From Fimbriimonadaceae bacterium (lineage in GTDB: Bacteria > Armatimonadota > Fimbriimonadia > Fimbriimonadales > Fimbriimonadaceae), in assembly GCA_019454145.1 (NCBI GenBank), contig CP075366.1, forward strand, positions 2,335,564-2,399,563: a DNA stretch of 64,000 nucleotides, given 5' to 3'. Position numbers and translations under genes: made by a program. This document shows, in pieces, positions 35,463 through 35,574 of the stretch. The notes below the pieces were generated by a model. The model made no database searches and had not been told where the DNA came from. It saw nothing but the letters and a program-made list of their open reading frames with translations. Numbering within the stretch: the first letter of the stretch is position 1; each line of letters opens with the position of its first letter.

Positions 35463-35574
35463 TCTTACGGGCCGATGCCTTTGGTTTATCGGTTATGCGA
35501 AAGCAGGCCAGGTTCGATCCCTGGGGCTAACCTTATGGTTAGTAAAACAGCCAGAGCACCACTTGCCTGTGAGA
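35463..35574 (+). ncRNA. Y RNA-like element 4 with tRNA-like module closed by a tetraloop
   Basis: TCTTACGGGC (35463-35472) pairs with GCCTGTGAGA (35565-35574), with CGATGCC and CACTT in the Ro-binding positions. The interior has a full T-arm CCAGG-TTCGATC-CCTGG (35508-35524). Then GCTAACC (35526-35532) and GGTTAGT (35537-35543) form a 7-bp stem, the exact length of a tRNA acceptor stem, closed by TTAT. AAAACAGCCAGAGC follows at the D-arm position but is degenerate. It ends 55 bp before the Ro gene start. Confidence 0.7.

Follow-up and report, generated by a model that had tools for sequence, protein, structure and literature searches.

A conserved Y RNA of Fimbriimonadaceae with a permuted tRNA-like body, no D-arm and a proposed surrogate D-loop

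Positions 35463–35574 of the window (the whole 64,000-nt stretch of DNA analyzed here) hold the last of four Y-RNA-like elements, E1–E4, which lie directly upstream of rsr, the bacterial Ro60 ortholog. Element 4 (E4) is almost certainly a conserved, functional Y RNA. The overall reading that we propose, to which we assign a probability of about 0.58, is that E4 carries a D-loop-opened tRNA-like body on a Ro stem, with an elbow locked by a GG motif, and that this body serves the Ro particle as its effector handle. What sets E4 apart from YrlA as presented by Rfam, PMC8394870, PMC7790460 and PMC4726728 is the missing D-arm together with a GG(T) motif and a hairpin; the closed, permuted acceptor is already known from YrlA. 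Among the papers searched, none dealt with a permuted tRNA combined with a Y RNA, or with a Y RNA in Armatimonadota.

The Y RNA array and the architecture of element 4

The host is a member of the Fimbriimonadaceae (Armatimonadota) with a genome of 2.76 Mb, and the rsr of the window has 97% identity to that of 'Fimbriimonadaceae bacterium ACE_ARM7'. Region 35463–35574 is flanked upstream by a nucleotidyltransferase gene and downstream by rsr, and E4 ends 58 nt before rsr, the position beside a Ro60 ortholog that is expected of a bacterial Y RNA. When the whole genome was scanned with a 5' Ro-site pattern, the exact matches were E1–E4 only, all inside the array. The components of the array and the neighboring rsr are as follows.

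35066–35132, + strand: element 1 (E1), a short Y RNA without a tRNA-like body
35153–35278, + strand: element 2 (E2), an anticodon-opened Y RNA of the YrlA type, which has a T-arm, a closed helix and a D-arm that is intact
35303–35448, + strand: element 3 (E3), a longer Y RNA whose body is conserved but unlike a tRNA
35466–35571, + strand: E4, the entire Y RNA (fold; covariance-model matches in relatives; covariation)
35630–37216, + strand: rsr, bacterial Ro60 ortholog, with TROVE and Ro60 vWA domains (Pfam PF05731, 1e-38; PF25045, 4.1e-57)

The ORF directly upstream of the array (33971–34837) encodes NTP-transferase and AadA C-terminal domains and resembles aminoglycoside adenylyltransferases. 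The sequence TTGACA-N19-TATAGT at 34892–34922, both hexamers of which are kept in the nearest relative (L013), is a plausible candidate promoter of the array; its 19-nt spacer kept it out of the results of a simple promoter scan. Between this candidate promoter and E1 lies an inverted repeat, CAGCGTCGATT / AATCGACGTTG (34961–35023), also conserved in L013, which may be a leader structure. The long body of E3 (CTTCGGCGGAAAGGCCGRCCA ... GAGGCG ... GCGCGG ... GGCAA) is conserved across genera and was without a match in Rfam.

Within E4, the following parts were distinguished, all on the + strand.

35466–35472, +: Ro-type lower stem, 5' strand TACGGGC, partner 35565–35571 (fold; conserved with covariation)
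35473–35475, +: bulged C, then GA paired to TT at 35563–35564 (Ro60-site-like signature; site definition from PMC4726728)
35477–35485, +: upper stem, 5' strand, partner 35550–35557 (5/8 pairs changed on both sides)
35491–35495, +: GGTTA motif after TTATC, the proposed surrogate D-loop (G18 G19 N N A21; motif distribution across Y RNA clusters)
35496–35505, +: small hairpin TGC-GAAA-GCA in the anticodon-arm (or variable-arm) position (fold; 3/3 pairs covary)
35508–35524, +: T-arm CCAGG-TTCGATC-CCTGG with canonical G53-C61, T54, T55, C56 and A58 (sequence; covariation)
35525, +: unpaired G at the junction of T-arm and closed helix (fold)
35526–35543, +: closed acceptor-like helix GCTAACC-TTAT-GGTTAGT, outermost pair G-U (7/7 pairs covary; 98.5% paired)
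35544–35549, +: linker AAAACA in the place of the YrlA D-arm, which is absent (comparison with E2 and orthologs)
35565–35571, +: Ro-type lower stem, 3' strand GCCTGTG (fold; covariation)

A Ro-site stem is defined by a helix of about 7 bp, a single bulged C and a bulge on the opposite strand (PMC4726728). E4 has all three, namely the 35466–35472/35565–35571 helix, bulged C35473 and a CCAC bulge in the 3' strand, and GGGCCGA / TTG is invariant in most E4 relatives. The minimum-energy fold of 35463–35578 contains the same T-arm, closed helix, 3-bp GAAA hairpin (35496–35505) and Ro-type stem, at −42.4 kcal/mol (z −2.75; 1 of 200 shuffles was as stable). The earlier note had placed a T-arm at 35508–35524, followed by a 7-bp, TTAT-closed helix at 35526–35543; these coordinates are right by sequence, and the predicted fold agrees with them. 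The window contains a single instance of a perfect T-arm with a closed helix of 7 bp or more behind it, and 150 first-order Markov simulations of the window contained none, on which basis a chance T-arm plus hairpin was rejected. The acceptor helix is closed and therefore offers no free ends for aminoacylation; E4 thus lacks the free 5' and 3' acceptor ends of a functional tRNA, and ARAGORN made no tRNA call at E4. The description of the body as a permuted, tRNA-like one that cannot be aminoacylated accordingly stands. By these testable features E4 is a bacterial Y RNA, with Rsr binding predicted. A match of E4 to the nematode sRNA ceN72-3_ceN74-2 (22.6 bits, gathering score 38) was set aside as reflecting a shared Ro-type stem.

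Relation to YrlA and conservation of element 4

The Rfam consensus of YrlA (RF02553) has T-arm, closed helix and D-arm, in that order. E4 resembles it in its Ro-type stem, in the closed acceptor-like helix directly behind the T-arm, in having rsr as a neighbor and in its permuted body, so that the arrangement matches the YrlA tRNA-like domain invoked in the earlier note. The closed, permuted acceptor is a known YrlA design, since both the Rfam consensus and E2 show it; the crystal structure of Salmonella YrlA is 6CU1. E4 differs in having no D-arm 3' of the closed helix, where only AAAACA (35544–35549) is found and where the orthologs lack the arm too, and in having GG(T) plus a hairpin 5' of the T-arm. 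Against RF02553, E4 gave no match at E up to 5 and thus fell short of the gathering score; E2 scored 37.9 bits, below the gathering score of 69, and is a divergent YrlA. E4 is not YrlA proper because it lacks the D-arm and the model score, although it shares the T-arm and closed helix.

E2 and E4, whose comparison had been suggested beforehand, share the Ro stem, T-arm and closed, permuted acceptor helix. In E2, by contrast, the D-arm is intact (GCTC-AGTGGTA-GAGC) and a remnant of the anticodon loop (CTTCTAA) survives; ARAGORN recognizes E2 as a tRNA when it is rejoined in the anticodon arm. The D-arm of E4 had been called degenerate; it is instead absent from E4 and from all its orthologs, which have few nucleotides between the closed helix and the Ro stem and carry GG(T) and the hairpin on the other side of the T-arm. 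YrlA-type bodies with recognizable but differing anticodon loops were found in E2 and in L014, L015, L007 and L021. Among these E2-type Y RNAs, the loop of E2 (CTTCTAA) is like that of Arg UCU, that of L014:852 (CTGTCAC) like Asp GUC, that of L007:2935 (CTGATAA) like Ile GAU and that of L015:3385 (CTCATAA) like Met CAU. To judge from these loops, the differences suggest repeated capture of different tRNAs. The tRNA-like domain of tmRNA is a further case of tRNA mimicry with a reduced D-arm; tmRNA has free acceptor ends and is aminoacylated, in contrast to E4 with its closed acceptor and Ro stem.

TROVE was present in 37 of 113 genomes of the order. All seven same-genus genomes with rsr (that of the window and six others) contain E4, usually in the same array, and the single same-genus genome without rsr lacks E4 too. 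Other genera of the family have orthologs too (L005, L009, L011, L015 and L017), as do other families; the hairpin sequence GCGAAAGC is present in L005 too. The order of parts in E4 and its orthologs is TTATC of the Ro stem, GG(T), a hairpin of 2–6 bp and the T-arm, and E4-type RNAs retain T54-T55-C56-R57-A58. Unconstrained folds of most single orthologs gave the same three hairpins. An alignment of 11 E4 sequences to a structure model of the window RNA was used because MAFFT/RNAalifold misaligned the E4 hairpins. In this alignment 20 of 30 pairs changed on both sides (the mean over 500 shuffles was 12.6, and 20 was never reached), a count that is inflated by fitting the alignment to the structure. 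Sliding the alignment as a control made pairing collapse from 96.5% to 35–48%. Covariation was found in every helix, with both-sided changes in 4/5 pairs of the T-arm, 3/3 pairs of the hairpin and 7/7 pairs of the closed helix, of which 98.5% of cells were paired across the 11 orthologs. The closed helix varies in relatives from 5 to 10 bp with loops of 2–9 nt, so that a length of 7 bp is not itself conserved. Its disruption in relatives, named beforehand as evidence against the mimic, is the exception, as most relatives keep it; the helix has a bulge in L011, has degenerated in L017 and is gone from L009, where the ortholog (L009:2239–2321, − strand) keeps GG, hairpin and T-arm.

The GG motif and the point of opening

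In tRNA, the D-loop residues G18 and G19 form pairs with the T-loop residues U55 and C56. That the GG of E4 docks into its T-loop in the same way (G18-U55, G19-C56) is something toward which we lean slightly. The features by which we define the proposed D-loop-opened class, GG(T) after the Ro stem and a hairpin between GG and the T-arm, are found in E4 at 35491–35505. The distribution of GG was followed with a Y RNA finder that uses the Ro-site pattern and stem pairing only, not the GG motif, and that yielded 132 sequences in 114 clusters from fetched loci. GG(T/C) after TTATC was found in 18 of 24 T-armed clusters without a D-arm; the count was 2/24 for D-armed clusters and 5/66 for those lacking a T-arm (Fisher p 4.6e-6 and 7.8e-10, respectively, both optimistic because clusters share ancestry). 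Most of these loci had been fetched through rsr or through E4 covariance models, and the latter, being built from E4, favor GG-bearing matches; the L052 sequence was cut short by the finder in this count. On inspection, several of the exceptions proved to be misclassified: L017 and L103 had been scored as D-armed but are D-less, and L014 and L111 had been scored as lacking a T-arm but have T-like arms.

D-less, GG-bearing, T-armed Y RNAs were also found outside the family, in other families of Armatimonadota (L097, L098, L099, L103 and L107), in Chloroflexota loci (L042, L044 and L060) and in a viral contig (L256). The minimal conserved body is apparently GG, T-arm and closed helix, because some D-less relatives are without the hairpin; in L009 and L098, which have no closed helix, GG, hairpin and T-arm remain. 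Short-pattern scans of viral sequences returned mostly chance matches and tRNA genes, the Y RNAs among them being L256 and L306/L355 only. Contigs L306 and L355 carry several Y RNAs, one of which is a D-loop-opened tRNA-like RNA with an intact split D-stem.

Relatives with a D-arm split in this way bear on where the tRNA-like body was opened. In L007:3381–3507 (Armatimonadota), a copy that sits elsewhere than the rsr-proximal position of E4, the order is GGTA GAGC, hairpin, AGGGC, T-arm, closed helix, TG GCTC AGT. In phage contig L306 (and L355) it is GGTTA GAGC, hairpin, AGGTC, T-arm, closed helix, TA GCTC AGT, and in Chloroflexi L052:2205 it is GGTA GAGC G CCTGA..TCAGG AGGCC, T-arm, CTTG, TA GCTC AGTC. 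The halves of the D-arm thus lie on either side of the Ro stem in all three. ARAGORN called L007 and L306 as tRNAs after rejoining in the D-loop and not as they are; L052 was called only after D-loop rejoining with a placeholder acceptor added. ARAGORN made no call for a wrong-order control. When joints were tried at all positions, D-armed Y RNAs were called mostly with a join in the anticodon arm, whereas D-loop joins outnumbered anticodon-region joins in L007 (40 vs 28 variants) and L306 (25 vs 3). This suggests that the opening point differs, lying in the D-loop in L007, L306 and L052 and in the anticodon arm in YrlA. Most E4 orthologs, including the E4 of the window, were called at no joint; E4 is not recognized as a tRNA after un-permuting at the D-loop because its D-stem is gone. 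The join scan of L007 and L306 is the reason why E4 is best read as the D-loop-opened form minus its D-stem, the last step being drawn from relatives, and a D-loop-opened origin of E4 is, on these sequence comparisons, marginally favored. E4 would then represent a second type of permutation, in which the Ro stem substitutes for the D-arm and GG stands in for the D-loop.

The main alternative is that E4 is an ordinary anticodon-opened YrlA minus its D-arm, with the hairpin as a class-II-like variable arm and GG as part of the Ro-stem junction. T-arm and closed helix follow each other in the order seen in YrlA, and the hairpin, which could equally be a class-II-type variable arm, is of suitable length and lies close enough to the T-stem for one. 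Some foldings also allow CGG to pair with a CCG in the 5' stem, a pairing that we regard as a minor alternative; almost all of these Y RNAs, however, have CCG in the Ro site, whereas GG is largely limited to the T-armed, D-less ones. An ordinary YrlA would leave unexplained both why GG occurs in precisely those RNAs that are missing the D-arm and why relatives have a split D-stem, and we consider this explanation rather unlikely.

Decay of a duplicate of E2, leaving E4 without a function of its own, might be suspected from the complete YrlA in the same array and the damaged bodies in L009, L017 and L014. That reading is very improbable: all seven rsr-bearing genomes of the genus keep E4, as do other genera, compensatory changes are seen in each of its helices, and its T-loop is canonical; we rejected it on covariation and conservation. 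E4 might instead be a decoy or substrate for tRNA enzymes that read the T-arm or top half (TruB, TrmA, RNase P or elbow-reading nucleases), rather than a tether. Its T-arm determinants are intact, and the D and T loops of the YrlA tRNA-like domain are modified by DusA and TruB, in an RNA that also tethers PNPase (PMC8394870); YrlA has moreover been proposed to be a competitive inhibitor of a tRNA nuclease (PMC7790460). On the other hand, E4 offers no anticodon loop for anticodon nucleases and no D-arm for DusA, and the best-studied Y RNAs act as tethers and gates (PMC4726728), which makes a decoy role improbable.

A proposed handle for the Ro particle

In the reading that we prefer, the Ro stem of E4 would bind the Rsr ring, and the body would be a tRNA opened in the D-loop, not in the anticodon loop, with the Ro stem replacing the D-arm. 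The small hairpin would be a trimmed anticodon arm, and the remaining GG would dock into the T-loop and so maintain the tRNA elbow. The closed helix would stack on the T-arm to form a tRNA top half that serves neither aminoacylation nor CCA-tailing nor translation. Such a body could tether Rsr to an RNA-binding protein that recognizes the tRNA elbow or the T-arm/acceptor helix, and TruB/TrmA-type modification of its T-loop is possible. The array of four Y RNAs may provide several interchangeable handles for one Rsr.

In bacterial Ro particles a tRNA-like RNA domain serves as a handle for an exonuclease. The system of Deinococcus radiodurans, with its RYPER complex of Rsr, Y RNA and PNPase, resembles that of the window at the level of gene content: a Y RNA lies beside rsr, and a PNPase gene was found in the host genome (876.9 bits). 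RYPER makes PNPase the best-founded candidate partner of E4, an identification by analogy that is tentative and well short of even odds. Enzymes that modify or process tRNAs are possible partners as well.

Some Y RNAs have a body that looks like a natural-order tRNA, with the Ro stem at the acceptor. They include L041:2714–2845 (Ardenticatenaceae, Chloroflexota), which ARAGORN calls unaltered, L111:1212–1336 and L076:1501–1624. A broader scheme, which we put at somewhat less than an even chance, is that Y RNAs have been fused to tRNAs at three arms: the anticodon arm (YrlA), the D-arm (the E4 class) and the acceptor (for example L041:2714). Under this scheme tRNAs would have been captured repeatedly by the Ro stem, acting as a portable plug, and only the T-loop/GG elbow would be indispensable and read by the effector.

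E4 keeps the T-loop, GG and the closed acceptor helix and drops the D-stem and anticodon loop, which narrows the essential part to the elbow and top half and makes E4 a minimal RNA for binding and structure studies. Its shape is kept by relatives in many bacteria and in some phage contigs. The split D-arm relatives hint at more than one origin of permuted tRNA-like RNAs, via different cuts, and a few relatives suggest, by their sequences, that Ro-binding RNAs were spliced into tRNAs at more than one point.
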